A stretch of DNA of 64,000 nt, taken from the NCBI RefSeq assembly GCF_014636865.1, contig NZ_BMER01000006.1, positions 248,001 through 312,000 on the forward strand, given 5' to 3'. The position numbers were made by a program, and so were the translations under genes. Below the pieces are notes generated by a model. The model was not told the DNA's origin. It ran no database searches and was given only the letters and a program-made list of their open reading frames with translations. The DNA comes from Parapedobacter pyrenivorans (GTDB taxonomy: Bacteria; Bacteroidota; Bacteroidia; Sphingobacteriales; Sphingobacteriaceae). Within the stretch, counting starts at the first letter, position 1. Each line of letters starts with the position of its first letter. Below, one piece after another: positions 19,870 to 58,401 of this stretch.

Positions 19870-19892
19870 AAATAATTGTTAATGGTTTAACT

Positions 19893-21104: not shown

Positions 21105-21208
21105 CGTGTATAATTTGTTTTTTAACGGTGATGAAGCTTATCAGATTTATTCATTCCACTGTGTGGTCTGAAAAATCATGATGGTTTCATGATGTGATGT
21201 TTTAATCG

Positions 21209-23152: not shown

Positions 23153-23158
23153 ACTTAA

Positions 23159-33030: not shown

Positions 33031-33049
33031 TTTGTTAAATCGTGATCTG

Positions 33050-34267: not shown

Positions 34268-34304
34268 GGATAGTTCTTAAAATAGTTGGTTGACAGTCTC
34301 ATAT

Positions 34305-35621: not shown

Positions 35622-35639
35622 ATGATCTATCCTTTCCGG

Positions 35640-36992
35640 TTAAACTTTGGGCTCCCAACCCTTTTCGTATTCTCGGCTCCACAACTTCCGCGCTTCGCGG
35701 TTATTCAGGATATGCCCATTGGATGGATCGGTCTCCAGGAATCCACCAGTGCGCTGAGCGATATTACCCAATTGGACAAGCAGCGTGCTGATATGGCCGC
35801 TTTCGATATCGGAAGCGAGCTTTTGACCACTTTTAATCCCATCGAAAAAATTCTGAATGTGGATAGCGTCCAATGCTTGAGACGGATTGGTGAGGTTTCG
35901 GGCATCGATGGTCAGGTCATTCTTGACTTCTTTCACCAATTTACCTTTGAGGTCATACACATTGTACGCATTGCCGCCATCGATTTGCAATGCGCCTTCT
36001 TCTCCATAAAAGATAACCCCGACAGTAGATCCTTCTATTGGCGTGCCGTTACAGCTTCTACCCTCCCAGGTAATCATACTTTTATCCGCAAACTCCAAAT
36101 TTATTGTTTGGGTATCGGGTGTTTGCCAGTCGTCTTGGTAACGGTAGCGCCCACCTGCAGAAGTGACCTTAGTGGGATAATCCACCTGTAGACCCCAACG
36201 GGCTAGGTCGACCATATGGGTACCATTATTTAACGCTTCACCAGTACCCCAATGCCAAAACCAATGCCAGTTATAATGAATGAGATTATCTTTAAGGGCA
36301 CGGCGTGGGGCAGGTCCCTGCCACAGTTCATAATCCAGCCATTCAGGCACCGTCATTTCCTTGCCCACCCCGATTGATGCTCGATTATTGGTATACCAGG
36401 TCTTTGCGAAATAAGGCTTACCGATGACTCCCCCGTGAAGCTCACCGATAGCTTGCGCTACGTTTGGCCAGGACCGCCGCTGGTTACCCATCTGAATCAC
36501 GTTTCCGTGCTTCTTTTGGGCAGCAATCAGCAATTCCCCTTCGTGCGGATTATGGCTCGCTGGCTTCTCCAGATAAACGTGCTTTCCAGCTTGAGACGCC
36601 ATAATCGCTGCTGGTGCGTGCCAATGATCCGGGGTTGCGACTACCAATGCATCAAAGTCCTGCTTCTCGAGCAGCCTGCGGATATCAGGCTCGGCCTTAG
36701 GTCGACTATTTTGTTTGCCAGCCACTTGCCCCATACATTTCTCAGCAGCGCGACTATCCACATCACAGATATACACAATTTCGCAGTTCGGCTGCGATGC
36801 AAAGTTGTTGGCAAGTGCAAGGCCCCGTGCATTGACGCCCATCATCGCCACACGGATACGTTCATTAGCCCCTACAATATTAGCATAACCGCGAGCGCTG
36901 AGGCCGGGTAAAATCCCGCCAAATGATAACGCTGCCGCACCTATTGTGGTTTTCTTGATAAAATCCCTTCTCGAATTCATCTTACTTTCCAT
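35640..36992 (-). CDS. Gfo/Idh/MocA family oxidoreductase with Tat leader
   Basis: A 450-residue NAD(P)-binding oxidoreductase exported by the Tat route: the leader is NSRRDFIKKTTIGAAALSFGG. It has a Rossmann start (RIRVAMMGVNARG), the sugar-oxidoreductase motif YLEKPASHNP and downstream MGNQRRSWPNV. Members act on sugars or glycosides with tightly bound nicotinamide cofactor; several Bacteroidota relatives form or reduce 3-keto sugars. It may start at 36992 (MESK) or at 36980 (MNSRRDF). First gene of the nag-like operon, whose promoter-like element and palindrome lie just upstream, so it probably acts on the same amino-sugar source before uptake. Confidence 0.88.
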   Translation of the reverse strand: MESKMNSRRDFIKKTTIGAAALSFGGILPGLSARGYANIVGANERIRVAMMGVNARGLALANNFASQPNCEIVYICDVDSRAAEKCMGQVAGKQNSRPKAEPDIRRLLEKQDFDALVVATPDHWHAPAAIMASQAGKHVYLEKPASHNPHEGELLIAAQKKHGNVIQMGNQRRSWPNVAQAIGELHGGVIGKPYFAKTWYTNNRASIGVGKEMTVPEWLDYELWQGPAPRRALKDNLIHYNWHWFWHWGTGEALNNGTHMVDLARWGLQVDYPTKVTSAGGRYRYQDDWQTPDTQTINLEFADKSMITWEGRSCNGTPIEGSTVGVIFYGEEGALQIDGGNAYNVYDLKGKLVKEVKNDLTIDARNLTNPSQALDAIHIQNFFDGIKSGQKLASDIESGHISTLLVQLGNIAQRTGGFLETDPSNGHILNNREARKLWSREYEKGWEPKV

Positions 36993-37044: not shown

Positions 37045-37062
37045 TTCGTGTACGTACACGAA
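37045..37062. promoter_or_regulatory. 18-bp perfect palindromic operator (TTCGTGTACGTACACGAA)
   Basis: TTCGTGTACGTACACGAA is a perfect dyad with a central CG, the form recognised by LacI-type repressors. It overlaps the -7 box TATCTTCG (37066-37059 on the - strand), which is 19 bases from a TTTG -33 box (37089-37086). A repressor bound here would block transcription of the Gfo/Idh-transporter-nagA-NagB operon. No regulator gene lies in the window. Confidence 0.7.
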
Positions 37063-37105: not shown

Positions 37106-38590
37106 TTACAGCTCTGTTCGTTGCGCCTGTATTGCCGCGATTGTTACAGGGCTGGATTGGGGGCCAAACCGTTTGCGAATATAGGTCAATATCACGGCCA
37201 GATCCCGGTCTCCGATAAACGAAAATTGTGGCATTTCGTTTTTCCCGCTTAAAATAAGACGAATCAAGGAATCCGGATTGCCGCTTACCAAGGGCGACCT
37301 GTTCAATGCAGGAAATGTTCCCGCCACTCCCCTACCGTTGGTCTTATGGCAGGAAGCACAATAATTGACATACAATTCTTCGCCCCGGCTTACTACATCC
37401 CCAACAGCACGTTTCACGACAGCATTTTTAGCCTGCTTATCCACATATTTTCTATCCAGCGCATATATTCTCAAAATCCGATCGTCTTTTTCATCTGCAA
37501 AGCCGTTGGGATTCCAGTCGCGGTTACTGGTAGCGACATAGACATCGCCATCAGGCGACACACAAATCGAACGCAGGCGCCCGAATACCTGCTGAAAATA
37601 ATTTACGTCTTTAATAATGCTATCCCCCGAAGCATTCAATTCAAGCGCATGGATACTATTACCTTTCAATGTGGTTAATAACAATTTCCCTTTCAACTCA
37701 GGTAGTTTATCAGACGAATAATAAGTTAATCCAGCTGGTGCAATCGTGGGTGTCCACGAACGCAACGGCGAGACCACTGCCGAATCGTGCACAAACTGTT
37801 CTTCCATTTCCGTATTCACAAAACCCGCTACGTGTGGCCAGCCATAGTTTCCGCCTTTGTGGATGAGGTTGACTTCATCTTCCACCGCATCTCCGTGGTC
37901 TGAATTATAGAGCTTTCCATCCACATACACCAAACCTTGGGGGTTACGCAATCCCCATGCCCACACCGCACTACCTGGAAACGGGTTATCATCCGGGATG
38001 CTCCCATCGATGTTATATCGCAATACTTTCCCATTAAGCGAAATGACACTTTGCGCATTTTCGAACTGTGCACCATCGCCTGTTGCGACCATTAATTTTC
38101 CATCTGGCGCAATAATTACACGGGCCCCAAAATGCCCGTTCCAGCCGGGGTATTCCAAGATAACCAATGAATCGACCAACGTATCCGCCTGATAGGTATA
38201 GCGAACCACCCGTGAAAAACGCGACTTATCCGCCCTTTCGCCGCTGTAATTCAGAAAAACATAAGGTTGGTTTGACAGATCCGGATGCACAGCCATTCCC
38301 AACAAGCCGGATGTCCGGTCGCGCAGCACGCCCTCCAGGTTCAATAGGCATGTGATTTTTCCCGTTTCCGGATTGAGCCTGCTCACTGCTCCGCCCTGTT
38401 CGGTAAACCATATGTGGTTATCCGGCCCCCAAACCAACTGCCATGGTACGTCCAAATCGGTCGCTATCGTTTGCACACCAAGTGGTGTTCCACCCATCAG
38501 AAACTGGTCATCAGGAGCGTTCTTATCGTGTGTACTACACCCTAGAAAAAAAAGCAAAGCAACGGAGCTTATAAGCCGTACATTTATCAT
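37106..38590 (-). CDS. PQQ-type sugar/aldose dehydrogenase fused to cytochrome c, lipoprotein
   Basis: A 494-residue lipoprotein (lipobox FLGC at residue ~18). Residues 35 to about 390 form a six-bladed propeller of the soluble glucose/aldose dehydrogenase family. The catalytic His is in GWNGHFGARV, and cofactor/calcium-site motifs are VATGDGAQ and WGLRNPQGLVY. A C-terminal class I cytochrome c domain follows, with the haem motif CASCH (411-415) and a likely Met ligand in NEMPQFS. It should oxidise a sugar or aldehyde in the periplasm with PQQ and pass electrons to its own haem. Last gene of the eight-gene operon, 3 bases after its neighbour. PQQ use is inferred; no pqq synthesis genes are in the window. 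Confidence 0.88.
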   Translation of the reverse strand: MINVRLISSVALLFFLGCSTHDKNAPDDQFLMGGTPLGVQTIATDLDVPWQLVWGPDNHIWFTEQGGAVSRLNPETGKITCLLNLEGVLRDRTSGLLGMAVHPDLSNQPYVFLNYSGERADKSRFSRVVRYTYQADTLVDSLVILEYPGWNGHFGARVIIAPDGKLMVATGDGAQFENAQSVISLNGKVLRYNIDGSIPDDNPFPGSAVWAWGLRNPQGLVYVDGKLYNSDHGDAVEDEVNLIHKGGNYGWPHVAGFVNTEMEEQFVHDSAVVSPLRSWTPTIAPAGLTYYSSDKLPELKGKLLLTTLKGNSIHALELNASGDSIIKDVNYFQQVFGRLRSICVSPDGDVYVATSNRDWNPNGFADEKDDRILRIYALDRKYVDKQAKNAVVKRAVGDVVSRGEELYVNYCASCHKTNGRGVAGTFPALNRSPLVSGNPDSLIRLILSGKNEMPQFSFIGDRDLAVILTYIRKRFGPQSSPVTIAAIQAQRTEL

Positions 38591-38593
38591 GTC

Positions 38594-40075
38594 TTAATCC
38601 TTGATCAATTCATTTACCGTATAGCACACCAACCCGCTACGTATCGGCTGCCCCCATTTACTCCGCAGATCACCCAAGTTCAGCTCATAAATAAAACCTG
38701 GTTTTAAAGAAGCCAGTTGGAGGGTCACGGTTTTTCGATTGCGAGACAACTTCACATCCGTGACGCGGATCCTTTCCAATTCCTGTTGAGGGGATCCGTA
38801 TTTTTGATGATATAAATAATAATACCTAGCGAATTGATAGTTATCCGGATTTAGTGCCGCGGTGTCTTGTATGGGTTGTGTAAACGTCAGTTCGAACCCA
38901 TCGGATGTAAGCCGCATCGTATACACGTCGACGGGTTGCTTGCCTGTGAATACAATTCGCTGTATCCCAACATCCCCGAGCCAGCCATGTGCATTCTGCC
39001 CTACCCACAAACTACCATCTGGAGCAAATGCCAGTCGGCTATTCCCTTTTCGTAATCCCAAGCTATCCAAAAAGGGGGTGCATGCCCCCTGGAATTTGCC
39101 ATTCACTTTTTCCAACATCACCCGAACGATCCGTCCACGATTCATTTCGCCAACGAAGAGCTGCCCTTCGAAAGGCCCGAATTTTCCGTCCGTGTAATCG
39201 AATACCGGTTGTGAGGGAGAATTGGCCATGATACCGTGTGGAAAATAAACCACAGGAGGCGTACGCATGCTATCAAGTGTATCTAGCGGAAGCCGGAACG
39301 GATTACCACGGCTCCATCCCGACGTCCATACCAATCCGCCGGGGTGTCCGTAAAATTTTCCTGGTTCTACATGAAACAATGAGCTTGTTCCCACCCAATC
39401 CCCCTGATTGTCGGTTACAAATAAATTATCCGCTCCATCGACTACGATCCCATTCGGCGAGCGGAATCCAACTGCAAAGGGATGCAATGTGCCATCCTTG
39501 GTTAGCTTTGTTACCCATCCCCTATAGGGAACGGTGGAAAACATCTGTCGATTCCCCGTCGTCCCGTCGCGACCGTCCAGGTTGATCGTTCCCCTTACTT
39601 CATCGCGCATTTTCCCACCAGAGGAGGATGAATTCAATGCGATATAGAAATTGCCTCTGCTGTCCATCTCCGGGCCATAATTGAATTCATGGTAATTGCC
39701 CGTTATGCCAAAAGCATCCGTTACGTTCTCATACAGATCAGCTACGCCGTCGCCATCCGTATCTTTTAACCGCGTCAGTTCCGGAAGCTGCATCACCAAT
39801 ACCTCGTCGTTATCTACCACATGAATTCCCAACGGATCGTGCAAGCCCTCGGCAAACAGGTGCCATTCTTTTGTTATCGTATCGTAGGTCATGACTTCCC
39901 CTCGGGTAAACGCAGCAATCAGTTTGCCGTTAGGCAAGAACTCCAGTGCTCCGACCTGACTGGCCAGCCCTTTGGGCGTCTTGATATTTTCCACCATGTA
40001 GGCCTCCCCCGACTCCGGAGCAGGTGAACAAGCCATCAGCAGACTAATCGACAAGGCAAAAAAAACACCTTTCAT
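38594..40075 (-). CDS. Exported beta-propeller dehydrogenase-like lipoprotein
   Basis: A ~493-residue lipoprotein (MKGVFFALSISLLMAC). It has a six-bladed propeller related to PQQ-dependent/sorbosone dehydrogenase-like proteins (PNGKLIAAFTRGEVM, VGFRSPNGIVV, LFVTDNQGDWVGTS, LFVGEMNRGRIVRV). A calcium-binding type loop DTDGDGVADLYENV occurs near residue 105. A short C-terminal beta domain (about 380-493) carries no cytochrome motif, unlike its neighbour. ATG 40075 is preferred, overlapping the upstream stop by one base (TGATG); a GTG at 40078 would add one residue. Probably oxidises a substrate with electrons going to the cupredoxin or cytochrome encoded beside it; activity is inferred. Confidence 0.8.
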   Translation of the reverse strand: MKGVFFALSISLLMACSPAPESGEAYMVENIKTPKGLASQVGALEFLPNGKLIAAFTRGEVMTYDTITKEWHLFAEGLHDPLGIHVVDNDEVLVMQLPELTRLKDTDGDGVADLYENVTDAFGITGNYHEFNYGPEMDSRGNFYIALNSSSSGGKMRDEVRGTINLDGRDGTTGNRQMFSTVPYRGWVTKLTKDGTLHPFAVGFRSPNGIVVDGADNLFVTDNQGDWVGTSSLFHVEPGKFYGHPGGLVWTSGWSRGNPFRLPLDTLDSMRTPPVVYFPHGIMANSPSQPVFDYTDGKFGPFEGQLFVGEMNRGRIVRVMLEKVNGKFQGACTPFLDSLGLRKGNSRLAFAPDGSLWVGQNAHGWLGDVGIQRIVFTGKQPVDVYTMRLTSDGFELTFTQPIQDTAALNPDNYQFARYYYLYHQKYGSPQQELERIRVTDVKLSRNRKTVTLQLASLKPGFIYELNLGDLRSKWGQPIRSGLVCYTVNELIKD

Positions 40076-41220
40076 CACTGTTTTTCTGTTTTCGTCAGGG
40101 TTAGGGTAAACGCACGCGCTTCGTTAGCCGTCAACTGCAGCACATGATGTTTCCACACGCCTTTTGAAGCAATATACATCACTCCTTCGTAGGGGGATGA
40201 ACGGAATGTCACCCTCGTAGGCGCATCCGGGATCCGGAAATTCCGTTCTATCCCCTTCCCGTCAGTCGTCTCGCGGATCAATTCGTACACGTCCGTCCCA
40301 TCTACCTGATAGTGGAACTCCAGGTAGCGATCTTTCATCCGGTAGCCCTTGTATGCAATCCGCACAGGGGCTTTGTTGCCGATTTGAATCGGAAAGTCGA
40401 TTTTACTGCGAAAGAAAACCTCCCCGACTATCTTTGATTCGGCATCTCCTTTTCCTTTCCAGAGATCTGCGTTATCCAGAAACCCACCCATCCAAGCAAA
40501 CCGTAACGTAGAAGTACCCGCATCCCAACAATACGACACGTTGTGGGGCAGCGCGACGGCAATTGCCGCCGGACTGGCTCCCGCTATGAATACGCGATAA
40601 TGATAAGGGGGCACAGGCGTATACGGATGCAGCATGACCGGCTTTTCGTTTGCATGCCCGAGGTGCCCAGCACTCTCATCGGTTTTGCCGTCACGACGGC
40701 TTTCCGGAATATTCAAATCCTCCGCGAGTTGTGGCATTTCACCGGATACACTTACATACATCGCCCCAAACATCATTGTACCGTGGCCCGGGTAAGTACA
40801 CACGTAGGGATACACGCCCTCTTCATTGGGTGCCTTAAAAACCAGGGTCCTGGATTCTTCAGGTGCTGTAACGGGTATTGCCCAAAGTACATCACGGGTT
40901 TCGGGGATGTATCCGGCAGCAGGTCCGGCCTCACCAAGGTTGTTGGCCAGCGCCACTACCTTTTCCCGGGTACCGGGCTTAACAATTAAAAGATTGTGGC
41001 TCATATCGTCGGTATTATCCAGCAGTAGTTTAACCTGATCCCCTGGTTTCACCGTGAAGCGGACGACACTGAATTGCAATCCTGGCAACACCCCCATCTT
41101 GATGGTTGTTGTCGAATCGGTTTGACTAAATACCGAGGTACCGATAGCCAAGGTAAACCATGCGGCAACTCCCAATCGCTTTACGGATGTTCGCATCACC
41201 ACCTGTATCTGCCTCATCAC
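40075..41220 (-). CDS. Secreted azurin-like cupredoxin with C-terminal extension
   Basis: A 381-residue exported protein (leader ending FSQ near residue 33; translation may begin at Met1 or at Met9, base 41196). Residues about 35-160 form a type I copper domain. The ligands are His75 (DDMSHNLL) and Cys141, His146, Met150 in VCTYPGHGTMMFG, exactly the azurin spacing C-x4-H-x3-M. Residues 195-381 form a separate beta-rich domain (YRVFIAGASPAAIAVALP through GVWKHHVLQL) seen with dehydrogenase-associated proteins but of unknown role. It is a likely electron carrier for the two dehydrogenase-like proteins encoded immediately downstream, with which it overlaps by one base. Confidence 0.85.
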   Translation of the reverse strand: MMRQIQVVMRTSVKRLGVAAWFTLAIGTSVFSQTDSTTTIKMGVLPGLQFSVVRFTVKPGDQVKLLLDNTDDMSHNLLIVKPGTREKVVALANNLGEAGPAAGYIPETRDVLWAIPVTAPEESRTLVFKAPNEEGVYPYVCTYPGHGTMMFGAMYVSVSGEMPQLAEDLNIPESRRDGKTDESAGHLGHANEKPVMLHPYTPVPPYHYRVFIAGASPAAIAVALPHNVSYCWDAGTSTLRFAWMGGFLDNADLWKGKGDAESKIVGEVFFRSKIDFPIQIGNKAPVRIAYKGYRMKDRYLEFHYQVDGTDVYELIRETTDGKGIERNFRIPDAPTRVTFRSSPYEGVMYIASKGVWKHHVLQLTANEARAFTLTLTKTEKQ

Positions 41221-41229
41221 ATTCGGCGG

Positions 41230-42294
41230 CTATGGATTATTTCCCAGAAAGTCGCTTACGAAACCGTCGTCAATCAGTTCCGGATAGGCCTCACACACCC
41301 TCGTAATCTCTTCGGCTTGTCCCGGAGAAAGCTTTTCATCGGGATCCAGGCACCAAATGCCTTTTATGAGACCTTGTCTACGCAACACTTCATGTATACC
41401 CGGGATGCAACCGTGGAAACCGTGTGCGGGATCAAAGATCGCAGCATTCATATCGGTAACCGCAACGCCTTTCTTCAGCAGGTCCGCAGTTCCTTGGTAA
41501 TCATTTTCCCGGCACCGTTTCACTTCGTTGAATAAGTTGACGGCAGCATGTGTCCACACCGCCCAATGCCCCAATAGCCCGCCTTCGAAACGCTTTCTTA
41601 CCGTCTTGCCATTTATCTCAAACTCGTATGTTGTCAGTAGGTCGGCCACAATGTTATCGTCATTGCCCGTATAGAGGGTGATCTCGTCGTTCCGGCTGGA
41701 ATGGCATACCGCGCGGATAAGATCCAACGTTTGGTAACGATTAAACGGCGCAGCTTTGATGGCGTGAACATTTGGAATCTCCGCGAATGCCTTCCAAAAA
41801 TCGTAGGAAAAAATACGTCCGCCGACGCTTGGCTGGAGATAGAAACCAAAAACAGGGATTATTGCTGCAACCGCCCGTGTACGATCCAATAGCTCCGCCT
41901 CCGTTTTTCCCTGCAGGCCGCCCATACTTAACAAAGCGAGATCATAATCATATTTCAGGGCAACCATCGCTTCCTTCAGTGCCTGATCCGTATCTCCGCA
42001 GACACCAGCCACAGCAAGAAAACGCGCACTCTTACCGGATGCAGCTATCTCTTCGGCAGCGAGCGCCAATACTTTTTCATACAGATTCACATCCGGATCG
42101 CGTATAGCGAATTGTGTACTATGTACGCCAACCGCCACACCGCCGGCTCCAGATGCCAGGTAGTATCGGGTCAATAATCGCTGATGTTCTTCGTCCAGCT
42201 TCCTATTCGCATTAAGCGCCAGGGGATGTGCGGGTATTACCGTCCCCTGTTTTAATAACGTTGCTTTGATCGAAGATAATTGTTGTGTTGCCAT
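41230..42294 (-). CDS. DHDPS/N-acetylneuraminate lyase family aldolase
   Basis: A 354-residue class I aldolase-type TIM barrel, longer than canonical DapA (~290). The Schiff-base Lys is in VHAIKAAPFNR and the catalytic Tyr in PVFGFYLQP, followed by the barrel-end segments. The substrate-binding loop is GAGGVAVGVHST rather than the GTTGE of DapA, so it is not a lysine biosynthesis enzyme. It probably cleaves a 2-keto-3-deoxy acid or similar oxidised sugar derived from the operon's substrate. It has no leader, so it is cytoplasmic. It is 3 bases downstream of the SDR gene. Confidence 0.82.
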   Translation of the reverse strand: MATQQLSSIKATLLKQGTVIPAHPLALNANRKLDEEHQRLLTRYYLASGAGGVAVGVHSTQFAIRDPDVNLYEKVLALAAEEIAASGKSARFLAVAGVCGDTDQALKEAMVALKYDYDLALLSMGGLQGKTEAELLDRTRAVAAIIPVFGFYLQPSVGGRIFSYDFWKAFAEIPNVHAIKAAPFNRYQTLDLIRAVCHSSRNDEITLYTGNDDNIVADLLTTYEFEINGKTVRKRFEGGLLGHWAVWTHAAVNLFNEVKRCRENDYQGTADLLKKGVAVTDMNAAIFDPAHGFHGCIPGIHEVLRRQGLIKGIWCLDPDEKLSPGQAEEITRVCEAYPELIDDGFVSDFLGNNP

Positions 42295-42297
42295 GGG

Positions 42298-43314
42298 TTA
42301 AAATTTACCTGCTCGTTCTTGAAAATGCGTGGGTTTATCCAATAGTTCACCGCCATCAAGTAGCCATCGTGCCGTGAGCTCGATGATTTCGCGTATGGTT
42401 ACCCGAGGATATCCAAATAGCCGATGACACTCCGAGGCATTGTTCAGCAATGCCGTACTGGCGGGTTCGTTTATAAATTGGGGTTCTTTGTCGAATATCA
42501 GGCCGAATTGTCTGGCTAGCCAACGGGTAGACAACGTTTCCGGCCCCGTTACATTCAACATTTTTGCCGGCGACTCACAATGGAGCAGCGAACGGATAGC
42601 GATTTCATTGGCATCGCCTTGCCAGATGACATTTACGTTTTCGGTACGCAGGTCGATCGGCCTTCCGGCAAGTACTGATTTTGCAACCTCCAATACCACA
42701 CCATAGCGAAAATCGACGGCGTAATTTAGTCGATAAATCAACATAGGTGTATCATTCTTTTCTGAAAAATATTCAAAAACCCGCTCTCGACCGAGACATG
42801 ACTGTGCGTACTCGCCGAGTGGCTCCGGAGCCACGTCCTCGGACGCTCCCCCGGAAGTCACCGGCATGAAGGGAAGGACATTGCCGGAGGAAAACGCCAC
42901 GATATTTGAGTTCCGGTATCGTTCGGCGACCCGTCCGGGTAAATAGGTATTCATAGCCCATGTATAAGCCTCGTTGCCTGTAGTACCGAACTTATGACCC
43001 GCTAAATAAATAACGTTTGGCGCATCCGGGAGATTGGCTAGTTCTCGATCGTCTAACAGATTGGCAGCTATTGTTTCCACCCCCACGTTTTCCAGCTCAT
43101 TGCGCGAGGTCTGATTCGAAAATCTGGAAACACCGATGATCCGTTGCCCACTTCCTGCGGCATCCACCGCCTTACGGGCCACTTGCGCCATTGTGGGGCC
43201 CATCTTTCCCGCCACACCAAGTAGCAAGATGTCTCCCTTAATGCGGCTTACATCATCAATTAATGCCGGTGAAGGTTCGAGCATACGTTGCTCTAAACTG
43301 ATCAATTCATCCAT
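42298..43314 (-). CDS. NAD-dependent epimerase/dehydratase-like SDR with altered active site
   Basis: A 338-residue extended short-chain dehydrogenase. The Rossmann motif is LLGVAGKMGPT (32-41) and the active-site Ser lies in FSSGNVLP (142-143). The catalytic YxxxK reads YAQSC (Tyr169, Cys173), so the general-base Lys is replaced by Cys. The N-terminal ~28 residues before the nucleotide fold are longer than usual. It is a cytoplasmic enzyme next to the aldolase gene (3-base gap). It may act on a lactone or keto-sugar, or have lost dehydrogenase activity. Confidence 0.8.
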   Translation of the reverse strand: MDELISLEQRMLEPSPALIDDVSRIKGDILLLGVAGKMGPTMAQVARKAVDAAGSGQRIIGVSRFSNQTSRNELENVGVETIAANLLDDRELANLPDAPNVIYLAGHKFGTTGNEAYTWAMNTYLPGRVAERYRNSNIVAFSSGNVLPFMPVTSGGASEDVAPEPLGEYAQSCLGRERVFEYFSEKNDTPMLIYRLNYAVDFRYGVVLEVAKSVLAGRPIDLRTENVNVIWQGDANEIAIRSLLHCESPAKMLNVTGPETLSTRWLARQFGLIFDKEPQFINEPASTALLNNASECHRLFGYPRVTIREIIELTARWLLDGGELLDKPTHFQERAGKF

Positions 43315-43335
43315 ATTCGTTCAATGTTTATTCAT

Positions 43336-44538
43336 TTATTTCAAAAATAGTTCCTTAAAATTATATACCGCCAGCACAACCAGTACGATGAGTCCAATCA
43401 AACCCGCCATGCGGACGAAAGGCGAGTTGGTATATTGTCCCATTAATTTTCGATTGTTGGATAGCAGGTACATGACGATCGCAATAAAGGGAACCAGAAA
43501 AATAGTGACGCTTTGGGCGAGAACGATCATCTCCAACGGCGGCTTTTCGTACCCGATCGCAATGATACTGCCAGTCACCATGACTGCAGCAATTAAGCTT
43601 TTCACTACTTTTGAATCTAGGGAACTGCTATATCCCAGTCCGTCCGACAAAAGTGTGCCGCCAATAGTGGCGTTGCCAACCAGGGAAGAAAACGAAGCAC
43701 CAAACAATCCAATCAAAAACAAATAAGAAGCAGCACTGCCAAACAAAGGCTCTAGGGCCTTAGCCATATCCGAAGCTTTGTTTACAGCAATATTATTTTC
43801 ATGCAGCACTGCTGCAGCACAGGTGATCACTACCACGCACATCAGGCCTAAAATGATCATTCCCCCTGTTCCTCTACTTGTGCTGATATTTAATGTTGGG
43901 TTCGCCTTTTTTCGTGCTTGAATCAAATAAGTTTGATAGAAGGCCCCCACGACCGAGAAACAAGAAGCAAAAAAGGCAATTAATAGTCCCAATGATCCCT
44001 CGGGTACTTTCGGCGCTAAGCCCGATACCATGCCGGAAACGGAAGGTTTAGCCAAAAACGTAGTCGTAATAAACGCAAATAACATCAGTACCACGATTGC
44101 GATCATCAGCCGTTCCAAAACCTTATAAAAGTTGCGGAAAAACAAGAGCGTAATCCCAATTGTGTTGAACAAGATAATCCAAGGTGCCATGGGCGTGCCG
44201 GTTGCTTCCGCAATCGAAAGCCCGACACCGATCGAATTTCCAGCCTGGAAGGAAGTGGCTACCAAAAAAATACCAAACCCAATCAAGCCGGCAGCCCATC
44301 TCCCATAGTGTTTCCGTATGGTCACCAGCAAGGAATCGTCAGTCGCCAACCCAATTCTGGAAGCCATATTTGCATAAATAATCATGAAAAAAATAGCGAC
44401 GACTACCAACCATAGCAAACTATAGCTGTACATTGCCCCCATTTTTGACGTGATGGTAATCTTACTGGGACCAAATACGATGGCCGCTGTAACGATGCCT
44501 GGCGCTAGCGCCATGAAAAAATTTCTTATTTTGGGCAT
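43336..44538 (-). CDS. Nramp-fold transporter lacking the canonical metal-binding residues
   Basis: A 400-residue membrane protein with about 11 helices that aligns with Nramp transporters from helix 1 onward (LAPGIVTAAIVFGPSKITI then YSLLW). The helix 1 DPGN motif is GPSK (23-26), and the helix 6 MPHN motif is AFYQ (199-202, in VVGAFYQTYLIQ). The Asp, Asn and Met that coordinate Mn/Fe in Nramp are therefore all absent. In this operon with SusCD and sugar-type enzymes it probably carries an organic solute or an ion other than transition metals. It lies 39 bases after susD and 21 bases before the SDR gene. Confidence 0.85.
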   Translation of the reverse strand: MPKIRNFFMALAPGIVTAAIVFGPSKITITSKMGAMYSYSLLWLVVVAIFFMIIYANMASRIGLATDDSLLVTIRKHYGRWAAGLIGFGIFLVATSFQAGNSIGVGLSIAEATGTPMAPWIILFNTIGITLLFFRNFYKVLERLMIAIVVLMLFAFITTTFLAKPSVSGMVSGLAPKVPEGSLGLLIAFFASCFSVVGAFYQTYLIQARKKANPTLNISTSRGTGGMIILGLMCVVVITCAAAVLHENNIAVNKASDMAKALEPLFGSAASYLFLIGLFGASFSSLVGNATIGGTLLSDGLGYSSSLDSKVVKSLIAAVMVTGSIIAIGYEKPPLEMIVLAQSVTIFLVPFIAIVMYLLSNNRKLMGQYTNSPFVRMAGLIGLIVLVVLAVYNFKELFLK

Positions 44539-44577
44539 ATTGTTGTCATGATTTTATGTTTCATCAAATAAACGAGA

Positions 44578-46308
44578 TCACTGCCAGCCCGGATTTTGGG
44601 TCAAATTGTCATTGAGCACAATTTCGCTAATCGGAATCGAGTTGAGGTAATCCCGATCCAGTTTAAAACCATATCCGGACGGCAATGCATTTTTCAGCGG
44701 ATCAAGAAATCCATCGTCGTCTATCGGAAATGGATTTTTAGCAACCTGCGAAGCCATGAACCCTTTTGGACGCGTGCCGACAATCAGTTCATCTGCCGCT
44801 GCCCAGCGGGCGATATCATTCCACCTGAAGCCTTCAGCCGCCAATTCCACCCGCCGTTCACGCCGAATTTCATTAATCACTGGCGACAATGTCGGAAAAT
44901 TCCAGTTGGGATCCGTTGCAATATCATCCAATAGCAAGTCGGGCATGCCGACACGGTCACGCAATGGTTTAATGGACTTATCAATATCATCCTGAGTAAG
45001 TGTACCCAGTTCTGCTTTGGCTTCCGCAAAGTTGAGCAACGCCTCGGCATATCGATAGATCAAACCCGGTGATTCTTCGTATTGCTGCACATGGTAAACG
45101 AGATTCGGGTTATATCCTTTCTGGATAATGTAACCACTAGGCGCGTTTAAATCTGCCCTTGAGTTTAGCTGATCATACGCCTCACTCCAATAAGTGGTAT
45201 CACTATTTTCGTCAATTTTCCAGATTTGATCTGGCGTGGCGATGGTTTGATAAAACCGGGGATCCCGGTTTTCGGCTTCCGAAGCTAGTGTGTTGTATCC
45301 GCCGAACAATGCATTTCCACTGATGGGCCGACCATCCGCACACAAGTACGCATCAGCCAGCTGTTTGGTGATGCTTTTGTTGGACGGTGTTTCCATTCGG
45401 AAAAAACGATCGTTAGTAAAGTCTCCATCACCTTGGGTCAGGTTGTTGTCGTACTTGCGCCAAAACATCACTTCACTATTGGTCGAAAAGTCCAACTGGG
45501 CAAACAGCGCTCTGTAATCCGATTTCGGATTACCCGTACTGTATACGCTGTATACCCCGGCATCGATCAGTTCTTCAGCTGCTTCTGCGGCTTTTGCAAA
45601 ATACTTATCCGGATCGGGATTTGTCACGCCGAAGGGTGTTCCCGCATGGTATTTCTCCCAAGATCCCTCGTAAAGTGCCACGCGGCTTTGGATCAACAAC
45701 GCTATCCAACGATTTATCCGACCAGCACCCGAAGTTTTATCAGCCGTTAAGTACATCGCTGCCGAATCCAATTGGCCAATGATAAAATCAGCCACCGCAT
45801 TACGCGGATCCCGGGGACTGTACAATTCGGGTGAATCGGTTGTTAATTCCTTCGTTAGAATCTGCATATCCCCGTAGCTCTGCATCAAATCAAAATAAAT
45901 CAATCCCCGAAAGAAATATGCTTCCCCCAGGTATTGCTGGTACGCATCCAACGCATGATTCGCCTCCACTCTGCGATAGTTATCAAAGAAAAAATTAATG
46001 CGGCGTACATTGGTAAAGCCGATGGTTCCCGTAGTTGCAATCGTGCGCGTACCCTGTAACCGTTGGTTCGCGGTACCGGTAACTTGGTTATCGCTATCAA
46101 AGTCGCTTCCGTGGTTGGCATATTTGGGGAACATGCCACTATTGTAAAACGTATTGATATAAGTGCGCATCTGGTCAGGCGTTTCAAAGAAAACGTCCGA
46201 TGTAGTCGCGTCCTCGGGGCGACGATTGAGGAAATCTTTATCACAAGCGCTGTTAAACAGCGCGAAGAATAGTGCTATGCAAATGAAATACCTTTTCATG
46301 ACATCCAT
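44578..46308 (-). CDS. SusD/RagB-family nutrient-binding lipoprotein
   Basis: A 576-residue SusD-like lipoprotein (leader MKRYFICIALFFALFNSAC; translation from 46308 or from Met4 at 46299). SusD landmarks are YLGEAYFFRGLIYFDLMQSYGDMQ, LIYRYAEALLNFAEAKAEL and the terminal INEIRRERRVELAAEGFRWNDIARW. It should bind the operon's substrate at the surface and pair with the SusC encoded 9 bases upstream. Confidence 0.94.
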   Translation of the reverse strand: MDVMKRYFICIALFFALFNSACDKDFLNRRPEDATTSDVFFETPDQMRTYINTFYNSGMFPKYANHGSDFDSDNQVTGTANQRLQGTRTIATTGTIGFTNVRRINFFFDNYRRVEANHALDAYQQYLGEAYFFRGLIYFDLMQSYGDMQILTKELTTDSPELYSPRDPRNAVADFIIGQLDSAAMYLTADKTSGAGRINRWIALLIQSRVALYEGSWEKYHAGTPFGVTNPDPDKYFAKAAEAAEELIDAGVYSVYSTGNPKSDYRALFAQLDFSTNSEVMFWRKYDNNLTQGDGDFTNDRFFRMETPSNKSITKQLADAYLCADGRPISGNALFGGYNTLASEAENRDPRFYQTIATPDQIWKIDENSDTTYWSEAYDQLNSRADLNAPSGYIIQKGYNPNLVYHVQQYEESPGLIYRYAEALLNFAEAKAELGTLTQDDIDKSIKPLRDRVGMPDLLLDDIATDPNWNFPTLSPVINEIRRERRVELAAEGFRWNDIARWAAADELIVGTRPKGFMASQVAKNPFPIDDDGFLDPLKNALPSGYGFKLDRDYLNSIPISEIVLNDNLTQNPGWQ

Positions 46309-46317
46309 AATAAAAAG

Positions 46318-49300
46318 TTAGAAGGTTAGATTCAATCCGAACGAAAATGAGCTGGTCTGAGGGTAAATCATGCCCGCTGTCTGATAGCCTCCAAACCCCC
46401 TATCCGATGCAATCATCGTTTCCGGATCAAAGGCTTTGGGGACATTCGTAATCAACAACAAATTCTCGCCTGAAAAATATACCCGAACATTTGCAATCTT
46501 AAACCGACTCAGGAAATCAGCCGGCAAATTGTAACCTATCTGTATATTCCTAAGCCTTAGGTAAGCTGCGTTTATCAAATATCGACTTTGTACTTGCCTG
46601 TTCTTATTCGTTTCTGCCGTAAAATAAGGTTTGGCCAGGTAAGCATCGGTATTCGGACCTAGGATATTGGTTTCGCTTGCCGGGCGCCAATAATCCAAAT
46701 TGGGCGAATCTTTGAAAATCGCTGAGCCACCCCATGCCGTGGTCAACCCCCAGAATACCGGCGAATCGGTGCCCGGATAAAAATCTTGCTTTCCAACCCC
46801 CTGCCAAAACATTGAAAAATCAAACTGCTTCCAGTTTATACCTCCGGTAATGCCGATGTTATATCTTGGCTGATCGTTGCCAATCACCACCAAATCGCCG
46901 TGGTCATCCAACGTGCGTTCGCCATCGTTGGCAAAACCGTCGCCATTCAAATCCCGGTATTTCATGTCACCGGGGCCCCAAGAATCCCAGTACCTGGATT
47001 GGTCCGCCATTGCTTCACCTTCAGTCTGAATAAGTCCATCGCTCACCAAGCCCCAGATTTCCCCAACTTGCTTACCCGCATACCAGCCATCCACCGTTCC
47101 TTTGTCATTGCGGTATTTGAGAATTTCCGAACGGTTATCACCAAAACTCACACTGGCATTATATCCAAAACTGGGCGATGGACGGTCATCCCAAGACAAT
47201 ACCAACTCAAATCCCTTCGTTGACAGCTCTGCATTGTTGGTGCGTGGGACAGCGGCTCCGAGTTGGTACGGCAAGGTAATGGCCGGTCCTACCATATCGG
47301 AGGTTATCCGGTTGTACCAATCGAATGTCAGATTCAATCGATTATTCAAAAATGCTGCGTCGATCCCTGCATTGAATGAAGTGATGGTTTCCCACGTGAG
47401 GTTGTCACTGATCAATAGCGGTACGTCTGCATACGGCGGCCGCTCACCATCGATAATCCAGTTAAGCTGGCTGCCCGTAGGTATCGTGGCCAGGTACCGG
47501 TAATTCCGGGTGTTTTGACTTCCAGTTTGAAAAATATTCTGATTACCCAACGAACCGTACGAAGCCCTGAACTTTAGGTTATTCACATGATCGGTAATCG
47601 GTTCCCAAAAGCTTTCCTTAGAAATCGTGTACCCGACGGAGGCCGACGGAAAAAAGCCCCATCGCTTTCCTTCGGGAAACCGAGAAGAACCGTTGTACCG
47701 TGCACTGACTTCAACCAAGTACTTTTCATCGAAATTATAATTGAGCCGGCCGAATACGCCTTGTGTAGCCCAATGGTAAATTTGATCCGACAACACCCGT
47801 TCCCCCAGCGACGTGCTAATCGAAGGCACATTCAAATTGATCAAATTGGCTCCCGACCCGTTAATTCCTGTATAATAGCGATATTCCTGTTCGTATCCCA
47901 CCATCGCTTTAAAATAATGCCTGTCGAACGTGTTTTCGTACGACGTCATCCCATTAATCAGCGTATAGATGTTTTGGGAAAAAGCCGATCCGTAGCCTGC
48001 AACGGGTTTGCCGATATTGCCGAAATCTCCCGTACCCAGTTCAACCGGTACAGGCCGGGGGTTGGACGTACTCCGAAGGCCCTGATTATTGTAATTGTAG
48101 GAGAATGAGGTTTTCCATCCTTTGATCGGCTCCAATTCCCCGCCTAATGTCAGGAAAAAATCATTCGTAAAACCATTGTCCCTGCCAGTACCTTCCAGAT
48201 ACCTCACCAAGGGACTTTGCACTGTCCCGTTGATGTTGTAAAACGGCATCATCGGCGCGAAGGTGAGCACTCCGTTAAAGAAGTGCTCTCGTCCTACGGT
48301 CGTATAACCAATGGGGTAGTCCGTTTTTCCGGAGGTATACTTCACACTGGAGTTGAATTTAAGCCACGAAGTAATCGTGGTATTATAGTTGCCCATAAAA
48401 TTATAGCGCTTGTAACTGTCATTCCCCCATTCGTACAACCCGTTTTCTTCAACGTATCCCCCTGCAACATAGTATTGGCTATGCTCGTTGCCACCGGATA
48501 CGTTGATGTTGTGTTTTTGGCTGAACGAATTATCGCGCATCAGCAGCTGCGGCCAATCGTTGTTGGCATTTCCATCCCGGCGGCCACCCCACAGGTTGTC
48601 TATTGGGTCGTCCGGATTGTATTCGTATGGGAACGAGCCATCCAAATAGCCTTGGATTCGTTCCATCTGCTCTTCGCTGTACACTACGGTAGCTCCGGCA
48701 TTTAACGCTGCTTGATTATAAGCGGTGGCCCATGTATACGAATCTACAAAGCTGGGTAACCGGACAGGGCTGCTAAATGCTAGGTTGTCGGTATACTGGA
48801 TATTTACACCTCCTGTTTTACTCCCCTTTTTGGTGGTGATTAAAATCACCCCGAAAGGTGCCCGCGAACCATAGACCGCAGAAGCCGATGCATCTTTCAA
48901 TACCGAAACACTCGCTATGGATTCCGGATCGACGTTGCTGATATTCATCTCTACCCCATCTACCAAGATCAACGGTGAAGCATCGCCTTCGATAGAGCCC
49001 ATGCCGCGGATGTTCCAACTACTGGCAGAGCCCGGCTCACCGCCCCGCATATTCATCGAAATATTGAGGTTGGGCGAAGCTCCTTTTATCAGATCAGCAA
49101 CGTTATTTGCCGCGCGGTCTTTGAGCCGATCGCCCGAAATGACGTCAATCGAACCGGTTAGGTTACTTTTTTTCTGCGTACCGTAGCCTACTACCACCAC
49201 CTCTTCCAAATCAGCAGCCTGTGTTTCGAGCGAGATGGCCATCGTGCCCGTTTCTGCCGGAATTTCCAACAGCTTGTAGCCCAGAAATGAGAAGCTCAAC

Positions 49301-49506
49301 ATCATGCCCACACTCCCTTCAATCTCAAAGCGGCCCTGATCGTCAGTCTGAACCGTCCGGCTGCCAGCGGCGACTGTCACTCCGGAGAGCAATTCCTGTG
49401 TGCCCGCATCTTTTACCGTGCCGCGAATAAGCGATTGGGCATAAAGCGCCATCCCATAGCAATTGAATACTACGAGAAGGCTAAACGTTCCAATAAATTT
49501 TACCAT
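46318..49506 (-). CDS. SusC/RagA TonB-linked outer-membrane transporter
   Basis: A 1062-residue SusC-like protein without an STN domain. After the leader come the carboxypeptidase-like domain (IRGTVKDAGTQELLSGVTV), the TonB box/plug start (LEEVVVVGYGTQKKSNLTGSI), the plug motif YGSRAPFGVILITTKKG and the barrel ending TSSFSFGLNLTF. Lack of an STN domain means control is not by sigma/FecR; instead two LacI-type palindromes lie 48-86 bases upstream of its start. First gene of the eight-gene operon that runs to 37106. Confidence 0.95.
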   Translation of the reverse strand: MVKFIGTFSLLVVFNCYGMALYAQSLIRGTVKDAGTQELLSGVTVAAGSRTVQTDDQGRFEIEGSVGMMLSFSFLGYKLLEIPAETGTMAISLETQAADLEEVVVVGYGTQKKSNLTGSIDVISGDRLKDRAANNVADLIKGASPNLNISMNMRGGEPGSASSWNIRGMGSIEGDASPLILVDGVEMNISNVDPESIASVSVLKDASASAVYGSRAPFGVILITTKKGSKTGGVNIQYTDNLAFSSPVRLPSFVDSYTWATAYNQAALNAGATVVYSEEQMERIQGYLDGSFPYEYNPDDPIDNLWGGRRDGNANNDWPQLLMRDNSFSQKHNINVSGGNEHSQYYVAGGYVEENGLYEWGNDSYKRYNFMGNYNTTITSWLKFNSSVKYTSGKTDYPIGYTTVGREHFFNGVLTFAPMMPFYNINGTVQSPLVRYLEGTGRDNGFTNDFFLTLGGELEPIKGWKTSFSYNYNNQGLRSTSNPRPVPVELGTGDFGNIGKPVAGYGSAFSQNIYTLINGMTSYENTFDRHYFKAMVGYEQEYRYYTGINGSGANLINLNVPSISTSLGERVLSDQIYHWATQGVFGRLNYNFDEKYLVEVSARYNGSSRFPEGKRWGFFPSASVGYTISKESFWEPITDHVNNLKFRASYGSLGNQNIFQTGSQNTRNYRYLATIPTGSQLNWIIDGERPPYADVPLLISDNLTWETITSFNAGIDAAFLNNRLNLTFDWYNRITSDMVGPAITLPYQLGAAVPRTNNAELSTKGFELVLSWDDRPSPSFGYNASVSFGDNRSEILKYRNDKGTVDGWYAGKQVGEIWGLVSDGLIQTEGEAMADQSRYWDSWGPGDMKYRDLNGDGFANDGERTLDDHGDLVVIGNDQPRYNIGITGGINWKQFDFSMFWQGVGKQDFYPGTDSPVFWGLTTAWGGSAIFKDSPNLDYWRPASETNILGPNTDAYLAKPYFTAETNKNRQVQSRYLINAAYLRLRNIQIGYNLPADFLSRFKIANVRVYFSGENLLLITNVPKAFDPETMIASDRGFGGYQTAGMIYPQTSSFSFGLNLTF

Positions 49507-49554: not shown

Positions 49555-49572
49555 TTCGGTAACGTTACCGAA
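49555..49572. promoter_or_regulatory. LacI-type palindromic operator 1 (TTCGGTAACGTTACCGAA)
   Basis: A perfect 18-bp dyad with central CG and the GGTAACGTTACC core, typical of LacI-family repressor sites. It lies 49 bases upstream of the susC start in the 5' leader of the operon. Confidence 0.8.
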
Positions 49573-49576
49573 TCAA

Positions 49577-49592
49577 ACGGTAACGTTACCGT
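49577..49592. promoter_or_regulatory. LacI-type palindromic operator 2 (ACGGTAACGTTACCGT)
   Basis: A perfect 16-bp dyad with the same CGGTAACGTTACCG core as operator 1. The centres of the two sites are 21 bp apart (two helical turns), so two repressor dimers would bind the same face of the DNA. The rest of the gap up to 49726 is AT-rich and contains a GCCCGCGGGC palindrome at 49621-49630 but no clear terminator for the upstream operon. Confidence 0.8.
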
Positions 49593-49726: not shown

Positions 49727-50896
49727 CTATGGCTTCAGAAAATATTCAAAAAAATCACCTATTAGCTCATTCGACTGTGCGTTCGGATCGTGTCTTTCTC
49801 TATTCGACATCGCTACCCGGTTTTTGTACCCTAAAAGCTCGTTTACCCGAATCGTATGGTTGAGCGGTATCCATCTTTGTATCGGATCGGAAGAACCTCC
49901 GGATACCAAGAAGGGCCGCGGCGCCATCAACGCGTGCAACTCGTGGAGATCATAACCTTCGTGGATGAGCTTGGGATAAACACCCTTGGCATTTTCCAGA
50001 TCGCCGGTCTTTCGCCATACGTTTTCCCAGGGTGGTGGATAATAGCCCAGGTACCAGGGTTCCCAATAATTAACGGCACTTCCTTTGGTATCATCGAAGA
50101 CAATGCCAGGATCTGACCATGCGGCACAGGCAAACTTATCAAACAGACAGGACGCAAACATCGCCCACTTACCACCAAACGAATGCCCAGTGATACCGAT
50201 GCGCGTTGAATCTACTTCTGGCACTTTAGCTAATACATGCCAGGCGTTGGCCGCGGCATATGCCAACATCGACAATGGTTGGACCTCCGCGTGTTCAATT
50301 GTTGGGTAATACAGTGAGTATTCCTTACGTTGGGAAGCTTCACGGGTGCCTAGGGAAAGTACGACAAACCCGCGCTTCACCAGTTGTAACCCAAAATCCC
50401 GTTGCGGTTTGCCACTGATGCCCACCGCGGTCTCGGGCTCATAAAACACGGTAATTACTGCCGGATGCCTTTGTGCTCCCTTAGTATCTGGAATCAATAA
50501 ATAGCCGGCTGTCCATTCATCTGGCAGCCATTTAAATCGTACATGATGGCGTACGTATCCTTCTTGCTGGAGCGAGGAATCGATACGGAGTATTTGCTGG
50601 TCCAAAAACGGAGGCCACTCACCCATCAGCCCGTGCCATCTTTCCTGAATCTCTGATCGCCGACGCTGCCAATCTTCGTTATTCTTCACCCACATGCCGC
50701 CATCAAATTGCAGGGGCGATGAGAAATCGCCAAATTGTGCTTTCAGTGAATCGGGAGGTGAAAAAAATGGCGCGATCTCGATCCATAGCGCGGTGTCCTG
50801 CGCTGACGAATGACCTATCGAGTCTATGGCACGTCCGTGTACGTTAGCGGTCAACAATAACGCCGCAAGCAAACAATAGCTATAAAGACCTCTCAT
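49727..50896 (-). CDS. Exported alpha/beta hydrolase (acetyl-esterase/dienelactone hydrolase-like)
   Basis: A 389-residue exported hydrolase with leader MRGLYSYCLLAALLLTANVHG. The nucleophile elbow is GHSFGG, the acid is probably in GGSSDPIQRW and the His in RERHDPNAQ, giving a complete Ser-Asp-His triad. ATG 50896 is preferred because its first base overlaps the preceding stop (TAATG); a longer start at 50905 adds three residues. It is likely an esterase or lactonase acting in the periplasm on the substrate of this operon. Last gene of the second SusCD-containing operon. Confidence 0.83.
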   Translation of the reverse strand: MRGLYSYCLLAALLLTANVHGRAIDSIGHSSAQDTALWIEIAPFFSPPDSLKAQFGDFSSPLQFDGGMWVKNNEDWQRRRSEIQERWHGLMGEWPPFLDQQILRIDSSLQQEGYVRHHVRFKWLPDEWTAGYLLIPDTKGAQRHPAVITVFYEPETAVGISGKPQRDFGLQLVKRGFVVLSLGTREASQRKEYSLYYPTIEHAEVQPLSMLAYAAANAWHVLAKVPEVDSTRIGITGHSFGGKWAMFASCLFDKFACAAWSDPGIVFDDTKGSAVNYWEPWYLGYYPPPWENVWRKTGDLENAKGVYPKLIHEGYDLHELHALMAPRPFLVSGGSSDPIQRWIPLNHTIRVNELLGYKNRVAMSNRERHDPNAQSNELIGDFFEYFLKP

Positions 50897-52080: not shown

Positions 52081-52091
52081 TGCTACCCGAA

Positions 52092-53099: not shown

Positions 53100-53121
53100 G
53101 ATATTCAACAATTAAGCGTTT

Positions 53122-54114: not shown

Positions 54115-54175
54115 GATTATATATTTATGGTTGTCCATGCTGATATTTCGTTAAAAATCGATTAAACTCTGATTA

Positions 54176-55483: not shown

Positions 55484-55502
55484 TACGTATCGTTCTTCGT
55501 TT

Positions 55503-56861: not shown

Positions 56862-56898
56862 AATACACCATCCTCCTTCTCATATAGTTAGTGACTCG

Positions 56899-58383: not shown

Positions 58384-58401
58384 GATGCGTTTGTTCTGGG
58401 T

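Follow-up and report, generated by a model that had tools for sequence, protein, structure and literature searches.

A SusCD operon of Parapedobacter pyrenivorans with a conserved trio of Nramp-related, SDR-like and lyase genes that may serve the use of sugar acids

Within 64,000 nucleotides of the Parapedobacter pyrenivorans genome (contig NZ_BMER01000006.1, positions 248,001 to 312,000; this whole stretch is what we call the window, and positions are counted within it), the segment 37106-49506 holds eight open reading frames (ORFs), all on the minus strand, that run from a SusC-SusD pair for outer-membrane uptake to a set of predicted redox proteins. What is such a set of genes for, and which of its members belong together? 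An initial annotation, made from the sequence by a model, had placed a periplasmic chain of copper, haem and quinoproteins at the center. Its observation of the operon stands, and the emphasis should shift from the redox chain to three genes in the middle, which encode an Nramp-related transporter, a protein resembling short-chain dehydrogenases/reductases (SDR) and a lyase of the superfamily of dihydrodipicolinate synthase (DHDPS) and N-acetylneuraminate lyase (NAL). The conserved core of the locus is this widespread and apparently unstudied trio. Family calls were made with Pfam and NCBIfam, matches being kept up to an E value of 0.01, and the eight genes, from susC onward, are as follows (PQQ is pyrroloquinoline quinone).

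46318..49506, minus strand: SusC/RagA TonB-linked outer-membrane transporter, 1062 amino acids (TIGR04056, 810.5 bits against a cut-off of 368.25)
44578..46308, minus strand: SusD/RagB-type outer-membrane binding protein, 576 amino acids (PF07980, 165.1 bits)
43336..44538, minus strand: Nramp-related transporter, 400 amino acids (PF01566, 246.8 bits, with motif columns and alignment to solved Nramps)
42298..43314, minus strand: atypical extended-SDR-like protein, 338 amino acids (profile and fold; GxxGxxG, YxxxC)
41230..42294, minus strand: class I lyase of the DHDPS/NAL superfamily, 354 amino acids (profile matches, model, Lys180 and Tyr152)
40075..41220, minus strand: auracyanin/azurin-like cupredoxin, 381 amino acids (PF00127, 32.4 bits; auracyanin A, 6.3e-12)
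38594..40078, minus strand: beta-propeller, DUF7133/GSDH-like, 494 amino acids (DUF7133, 42.3 bits; GSDH, 28.5 bits)
37106..38590, minus strand: predicted PQQ-type aldose dehydrogenase (propeller with a fused cytochrome c domain), 494 amino acids (GSDH, 246.3 bits; Cytochrome_CBB3, 44.9 bits)

The ORF listing agrees with the layout first described, that is, eight genes on one strand with spacings, from susC to the last gene, of 9, 39, 21, 3 and 9 bases, then an overlap and then 3 bases; the overlap, between the cupredoxin and the second propeller, measures 4 bases if translation begins at the GTG of the listing and 1 base if it begins at the next ATG. Most of the family names also hold, since SusC, SusD, the Nramp-related protein, the copper protein and both parts of the GSDH-cytochrome c fusion score over curated cut-offs, and the DHDPS-like and SDR-like proteins are recognizable by profile or fold; the name that fell was that of the second propeller as a dehydrogenase. 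Of a polysaccharide utilization locus of the SusCD type, the tandem SusC/SusD pair is here and the degradative enzymes are not: Pfam and NCBIfam find no glycoside hydrolase, lyase or sulfatase in the eight genes, as had been claimed, although an esterase-like gene lies upstream and NagP-, NagA- and NagB-like genes lie downstream. The eight genes are bracketed by two palindromes.

49557..49591, no strand: putative operator upstream of susC, made of two CGGTAACGTTACCG copies in tandem, each a perfect palindrome, at a distance of 21 bases
37046..37061, no strand: putative operator for the operon that comes next, the perfect palindrome TCGTGTACGTACACGA, lying past the last gene and before a Gfo/Idh gene

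Their positions upstream of susC and past the last gene suggest that the eight genes form a separate unit, and both are candidate operators. Allowing up to three mismatches, CGGTAACGTTACCG has eight matches in the window (shuffle mean 2.4; 0 of 100 shuffles reach 8), of which the six outside the tandem carry 2 or 3 mismatches. Its 12-base core occurs at three sites in the 5.9-Mb genome, two of them upstream of susC, and the reversed control at 2, so that it is the tandem pairing, rather than the core, that is unusual; the third site, inside a repetitive coding gene, was dismissed as chance. The 14-base core of TCGTGTACGTACACGA has a single site in the genome and its control none, and a match to the full palindrome with up to three mismatches also arises in 14 of 100 window shuffles. 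Simple sigma-70 promoter matches were discarded as evidence (18 found, against a shuffle mean of 20.4), as was a Bacteroides-type promoter pattern, which had 0 matches.

How much of this arrangement is kept elsewhere? A scan of GTDB matched at least 588 stretches and gave at least 572 relatives, of which 80 loci from Bacteroidota and Firmicutes were retained. Neighbors were counted with a custom ORF picker and clustering in a set of 93 loci made up of the window, L014-L025 and L026-L105. With three duplicates dropped (L027, L044, L059) and two loci set aside in which an overlapping ORF had been picked instead of the SDR (L061, L101), 88 distinct loci remained, 81 of them from Bacteroidota, the window included, and 7 from Firmicutes. 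The Bacteroidota counts take in loci cut by contig ends, and in L020 the DHDPS gene is masked by an antisense ORF; each cluster took its family name from one or a few of its members. The co-occurrence search that the initial annotation had proposed, run on this set, spoke against the eight genes as one conserved unit, which we rejected: the full set occurs in just 2 of the 88 loci, both in Parapedobacter (the window and one other genome, in which an extra enolase-superfamily gene sits between DHDPS and cupredoxin). What is conserved is the core, with the Nramp-related gene directly before the SDR-like gene in 74 of 81 Bacteroidota loci and the DHDPS-like gene next after it in 78 of 81.

Whole genomes tell the same story. 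Among 60 of them (our own included), there are 13 strong copies each of the DHDPS-like, SDR-like and Nramp-related genes, spread over 11 genomes, and every copy of each adjoins the other two. Full-length members of the Nramp clade score 551-703 bits with the clade profile; the other matches in these genomes are a partial one of 385.8 bits and a 62-residue one of 101.8 bits, both in G007, and unrelated-looking ones below 98 bits. The SDR-like gene is present in 6 of 395 sampled genomes of the phylum, our own included, one of the six weakly (241.8 bits). In Firmicutes, the pair of SDR-like and lyase genes travels by itself: 0 of 7 loci have the Nramp-related gene before the SDR and 6 of 7 have DHDPS next, and in all 8 pair-bearing Firmicutes genomes checked the Nramp clade has no strong match, the sole match being of 78.7 bits. 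The SDR-like gene was found in 99 of 245 sampled Paenibacillaceae genomes. The genome of P. pyrenivorans itself carries a second copy of the trio (L021), which adjoins an enolase-superfamily gene, a major facilitator superfamily (MFS) carrier and two related genes; one of these two was tested and encodes a sulfatase whose C terminus is of the N-sulphoglucosamine sulphohydrolase type.

The transporter of the trio is plainly an Nramp homologue and as plainly an unusual one. The DPGN site of transmembrane helix 1 (TM1) reads G-P-S-K, with Ser25 and Lys26 in 72 of 77 homologues and Gly25 and Ser26 in the other 5; in TM6, positions 196-197, which align with the Pro-His of MPH, are I/L/V and V/A/G in 77 of 77, and the Met position is Ser in 13 of 13. 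In other words, on alignment to solved Nramps, the metal-binding positions of DPGN hold neither Asp nor Asn, and those aligned with MPH neither Pro nor His, in any of the 77. A canonical MntH joins family homology to DPGN in TM1 and MPH in TM6, and here only the homology is found, which places the protein with the Nramp-related group as defined in the available part of PMC12873925 (homology in the absence of the canonical metal motifs). Since those motifs are missing, metal import is not to be assumed, and the altered Nramp relative may carry a sugar acid instead of a metal. Nramp-related proteins can, according to the accessible portions of PMC12873925 and PMC4072509, carry Mg and, in one tested case, probably Mn, and the former describes such groups as entirely uncharacterized except for the NRMT-like group and one with a hypothesized Mn importer. 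EleNRMT and NrmT resemble our protein in belonging to the family without DPGN and MPH motifs, but those two carry Mg (same excerpts), whereas the genes of the present clade are linked to an SDR-lyase pair, and Lys is the usual residue of its proteins where TM1 would have Asn.

The lyase scores only 15.6 bits with Pfam DHDPS, under the gathering score of 22.1, although a profile search matches it to NAL and DHDPS and it aligns with N-acetylneuraminate lyase across the Lys and the Tyr. Lys180 and Tyr152 are kept in 88 of 88 homologues, as one would expect of a TIM-barrel Schiff-base enzyme; the initial annotation had named it a DHDPS-type aldolase. Its predicted structure (mean predicted local distance difference test score, pLDDT, 93.9) has NAL as the top Foldseek match, with a query TM of about 0.7, and superposes on DHDPS and NAL structures with VIA Z of 30.9-32.1 and root-mean-square deviations (rmsd) of 2.2-2.7 over 284-300 residues; this match of a model points to no single reaction. 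The enzyme shares the fold, the Schiff-base Lys, the Tyr and the S/T-T motif with the superfamily, but differs in being only about 13-22% identical to solved members, in falling under the Pfam cut-off and in its divergent motifs H-S/T-T-Q and FYLQPSVGGR. Its partner, the SDR-like protein, has no Pfam or NCBIfam match up to E 0.01. Gly33, Gly36 and Gly39 (GxxGxxG) are present in 91 of 91 homologues, which marks a Rossmann fold, and so is Tyr169; at position 173, however, 86 of them have Cys and the other 5 Thr, so the catalytic YxxxK is absent. The model (pLDDT 91.4) is best matched by TerB (Z 31.2, rmsd 2.6, 291 residues) and also matches sugar-nucleotide epimerases and dehydratases at Z 27-29.

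Of the redox proteins, the one encoded at 37106-38590 can be predicted to join a sugar oxidase of the PQQ type to a cytochrome c. Its His153, Arg215-Asn216, DEVN and GNYGWP, the motifs for PQQ and calcium, align with soluble glucose dehydrogenase, and a CxxCH at 411 completes the combination of GSDH propeller and haem motif. It shares the propeller with His, RN, DE(V/I)N and GNYGWP with soluble PQQ glucose dehydrogenase and PQQ aldose-dehydrogenase-like structures (1c9u, 3a9g), but adds to these the cytochrome c domain and, read by eye, a lipoprotein-like N terminus, and it lies in a SusCD operon. The cupredoxin aligns with auracyanin A through its His and Cys-His-Met, the ligands of a type-1 copper site; its C-terminal part is weakly like DUF6797 (under cut-off), its N terminus looks by eye like a secretion signal, and the passage of electrons to it is plausible. 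The second propeller, also with a lipoprotein-like N terminus by eye, passes DUF7133 (42.3 against 27 bits) and, narrowly, GSDH (28.5 against 25), reads FRSPNG at 205 where GSDH relatives have RNPQG (placed by eye) and contains no CxxCH in its sequence; given RS for RN, the missing haem motif and a GSDH score barely over the cut-off, we no longer count it as an established dehydrogenase. Across the genome, 7 genes account for the 8 GSDH-family matches, and 2 of these genes belong to this operon.

These redox genes, as it turns out, are variable accessories. Within 8 genes of the SDR, which is the neighbor window used throughout, the GSDH-cytochrome c gene is present in 50 of 81 Bacteroidota loci, but the cupredoxin and the second propeller (Azu and PropDH) are near the pair in only 7 of 81, so that the redox chain, although a PQQ-type oxidase with cytochrome c and a type-1 copper protein are indeed there in the sequences, does not hold the central place it had been given. 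Azu and PropDH also appear near the pair in other genera (L016, L052, L054, L067, L073), and a full-length cupredoxin occurs in 3 of the 60 genomes, each time just downstream of the trio, a fourth match covering the copper domain only. Enolase-superfamily genes recur as well (cluster F10 in 16 and F28 in 5 of the 81 loci); one F28 member, at 344 bits, clears the cut-off for galactonate dehydratase of 311, and another belongs to the second trio copy of our own genome. Hints of amino sugars near the trio come, in the same 81 loci, from NagB-like genes (11), M20 deacylases (10), NagA-like genes (7) and a cluster, F36, called GH20-like from reading its sequence by eye (4). Elsewhere, the neighbors include GH88-like, 3-keto-disaccharide hydrolase and sulfatase genes, which suggests that more than one upstream pathway leads into the trio. 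Of two other clusters, F11 had no solved relatives and F6 had one at E 0.00054 over 78 residues and two at 0.07.

For Firmicutes, the neighbor set was 28 loci (20 of the 99 SDR-positive Paenibacillaceae and 8 others), four of which, L101, L137, L138 and L146, are without an SDR call owing to an overlapping ORF. The common order is a regulator (20 family members), SDR, DHDPS, SdaAB (13), SdaAA (14) and an M20 deacylase (11), the genes for the Fe-S L-serine dehydratase and the M20 protein coming after the pair in about half of the loci. Near Bacteroidota loci, the Sda clusters are found within 8 genes in 0 of 81 (F80) and 1 of 81 (F35, a mixed cluster). Genes for ATP-binding cassette (ABC) permeases lie within 8 genes in 5 of the 7 Firmicutes loci of the distinct set. 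The regulator-like family beside the SDR (L098 8541-9923, L103 8501-9856 and others) has a GGDEF-GdpP-like domain and a C-terminal stretch that, by eye, looks like a helix-turn-helix.

What, then, might the operon do? The trio probably imports and breaks down an oxidized sugar, and we put forward, with a little less than even confidence, an oxidative, nonphosphorylative sugar-acid pathway built on the Nramp-related importer, the SDR-like protein and the Schiff-base lyase. SusCD, by its families an outer-membrane uptake system as first proposed, would take up a small carbohydrate; outside the inner membrane, the PQQ-type aldose dehydrogenase-cytochrome c would oxidize this carbohydrate, the product being an aldonolactone or aldonate, with electrons leaving via the haem and possibly the cupredoxin; and the Nramp-related protein would bring the resulting acid into the cytosol. 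There, the acid would become a 2-keto-3-deoxy-type acid, a step for which a number of relatives have an enolase-superfamily enzyme in the same operon, and the lyase, forming a Schiff base with its Lys180, would cleave this acid and release pyruvate and an aldehyde. The SDR-like protein, whose gene is nearly always directly before that of the lyase, might ready the substrate of the lyase or handle its product without the classical lysine, and this is the weakest step. The order of oxidation, import and cleavage is that of the initial annotation; the enolase-superfamily genes of relatives, with one member over the galactonate dehydratase cut-off, fit it; among the points of that reading to be amended is the SDR, which lacks the lysine of YxxxK. 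As for substrates, the class best supported by recurring neighbors is that of N-acetyl or amino sugar acids, an amino-sugar-derived acid being favored because NagA/NagB-like, M20, GH20-like and L-serine-dehydratase genes recur. A broader form of the idea, that a clade of the Nramp superfamily has moved off metals to become a dedicated sugar-acid importer coupled to the SDR-lyase pair, in an undescribed catabolic module common to Bacteroidota and Firmicutes, we regard as possible but doubtful.

A number of observations sit poorly with this proposal. In the operon of the window, no dehydratase or enolase-superfamily gene stands beside the trio, and F10, the commoner of the enolase-superfamily clusters, has no NCBIfam match. 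Seven of the 81 Bacteroidota loci have no Nramp call right before the SDR (some are cut by contig ends or perhaps miscalled), no substitute carrier was seen among their annotated neighbors, and 2 of these 7 genomes (L028, L052) hold the Nramp clade somewhere in the genome. In Firmicutes, the case that an ABC importer replaces Nramp is thin, since permeases were called in few loci (7 of 28, and 2 of the 20 from Paenibacillaceae), and the Sda proteins pass equivalog cut-offs for L-serine itself, a possible sign of another chemistry. The GH88-like, 3-keto-disaccharide hydrolase and sulfatase neighbors mean that a single substrate cannot suit every locus. Distances among trio members correlate at 0.77-0.82 (permuted maximum 0.12), but those between the trio and the GSDH-cytochrome c at 0.80-0.85 (permuted maximum 0.14), no lower than within the trio, which fits joint inheritance and, equally, a shared species history. 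The sample of loci is skewed to the closest 80 of at least 572 matches, and no regulator for the palindromes turned up nearby, a LacI-like helix-turn-helix regular expression having no match in the window or in 19.9 kb of L157, although a regulator may exist all the same.

The same facts can be read in other ways. The Nramp-related protein might import a divalent metal for the enzymes of the operon, much as EleNRMT carries Mg, with the organic acid entering elsewhere; its family membership, the Nramp-related Mg carriers and one probable Mn case in the available parts of PMC12873925 and PMC4072509, and the closest solved match of the clade profile, the divalent metal cation transporter 7qia at 131.8 bits, all lean that way. 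We think it unlikely nonetheless, for the canonical metal motifs are missing in 77 of 77 (although the Mg carriers lack them too), the clade is bound to one catabolic gene pair while 8 of 8 pair-bearing Firmicutes genomes do without a strong match, and an extracytoplasmic PQQ enzyme would presumably gain nothing from metal brought across the inner membrane. Improbable to a like degree is that a serine-like or N-acyl amino acid is the substrate of the SDR-lyase pair, or serine its product, with the M20 deacylase and L-serine dehydratase acting next and sugars being one source among others. The recurring Paenibacillaceae order of regulator, SDR, DHDPS, SdaAB, SdaAA and M20, with Sda proteins over equivalog cut-offs, is what such a chemistry would lead one to expect, and Nramps fall within the amino acid-polyamine-organocation superfamily (PMC12873925, in the part available). 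The near absence of Sda calls in Bacteroidota, given above, argues the other way, and PQQ aldose dehydrogenase, galactonate-dehydratase-type, Gfo/Idh and SusCD neighbors fit poorly unless the compound is a sugar amino acid, and a sugar amino acid such as N-acetylglucosaminate would merge this explanation with the sugar-acid pathway.

More improbable still, to our minds, is a patchwork, a larger amino-sugar island (DegT, Gfo/Idh, NagP/NagA/NagB) in which chance has put the trio next to redox genes that work independently of it and no coupled redox chain exists. The complete set in 2 of 88 loci and the wide variation of redox gene content speak for a patchwork; against it stand the short gaps and the palindromes at both ends, the 50 of 81 loci that have a GSDH gene nearby, and Azu with PropDH by the pair in other genera, all three full-length cupredoxins of the 60 genomes lying just downstream of a trio.

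If the sugar-acid pathway is the right one, its chemistry has known counterparts, but these work with different enzymes and carriers. The 3,6-anhydro-D-galactose pathway of carrageenan use in Zobellia (DauA-DauD) is a marine Bacteroidota regulon of similar logic: a sugar is oxidized to its aldonate, a 2-keto-3-deoxy acid is formed by a cycloisomerase, and pyruvate is released by an aldolase. The dehydrogenase of Dau, however, is soluble and uses NAD(P), and the route includes a kinase and an aldolase that acts at the phosphate level (PMC5698469, in its accessible part). Here, by comparison, a PQQ-type cytochrome c fusion would oxidize, the lyase is of the NAL/DHDPS type and there is no kinase among the annotated neighboring genes. 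The oxidative chitin (ong) pathway of Pseudoalteromonas shares an oxidized amino sugar, TonB-dependent uptake, a GH20 enzyme, a deacetylase, a deaminase and entry via 2-keto-3-deoxygluconate, but its substrate is derived by a lytic polysaccharide monooxygenase, its deacetylase is of the D-aminoacylase type, its importer is an SSS carrier, and it has a kinase; compared by family names only, the members of our trio are not among the Ong parts described in the excerpts at hand (PMC9537276, PMC12017989). We treat it as an analogy and not a membership.

No characterized SusCD locus with this content had been known to the initial annotation, and in the open-licence literature we likewise found none, nor any description of the trio or of its SDR-lyase pair. 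The pair is common (its SDR in 99 of 245 Paenibacillaceae; at least 572 GTDB stretches), and so its reaction, if it were worked out, would annotate hundreds of genes at least; the linkage of the Nramp clade with the SDR-lyase pair offers a concrete substrate hypothesis for an uncharacterized Nramp-related group.

The genes on either side of the operon may themselves form one amino-sugar island with it.

32260..36992, minus strand: Gfo/Idh gene (weakly BT_2158-like), NagP-like MFS carrier, NagA and NagB-like genes, downstream; similar genes recur near the trio in other genera
49727..61530, minus strand: second SusCD pair, DegT aminotransferase, 451-amino-acid protein without family, three Gfo/Idh genes and an esterase-like gene, upstream

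The downstream genes are possibly part of the same pathway (NagA is over its cut-off, the NagP-like carrier and NagB-like protein are under theirs, and another carrier follows further on), and the upstream genes are possibly part of the same island. The 451-amino-acid protein (54176-55531), which has no Pfam or NCBIfam match, has a homologue right before the Nramp-related gene in another genus (L022 5868-7157). Farther off in the window, a GNAT acetyltransferase domain is fused to a carbon-nitrogen hydrolase of the nitrilase family (28794-30305), and 18640-26638 is taken up by a further SusCD operon, distinct from this one, that encodes DUF4959/DUF5126/DUF5000 and DUF4998/DUF5000 proteins and has a FecR-like gene at 26778 just upstream of it. 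Near the start, after a GH18 gene at 874, lies a gene like the M81/MlrC-family metallopeptidases, the relatives of microcystinase (2039-3628).

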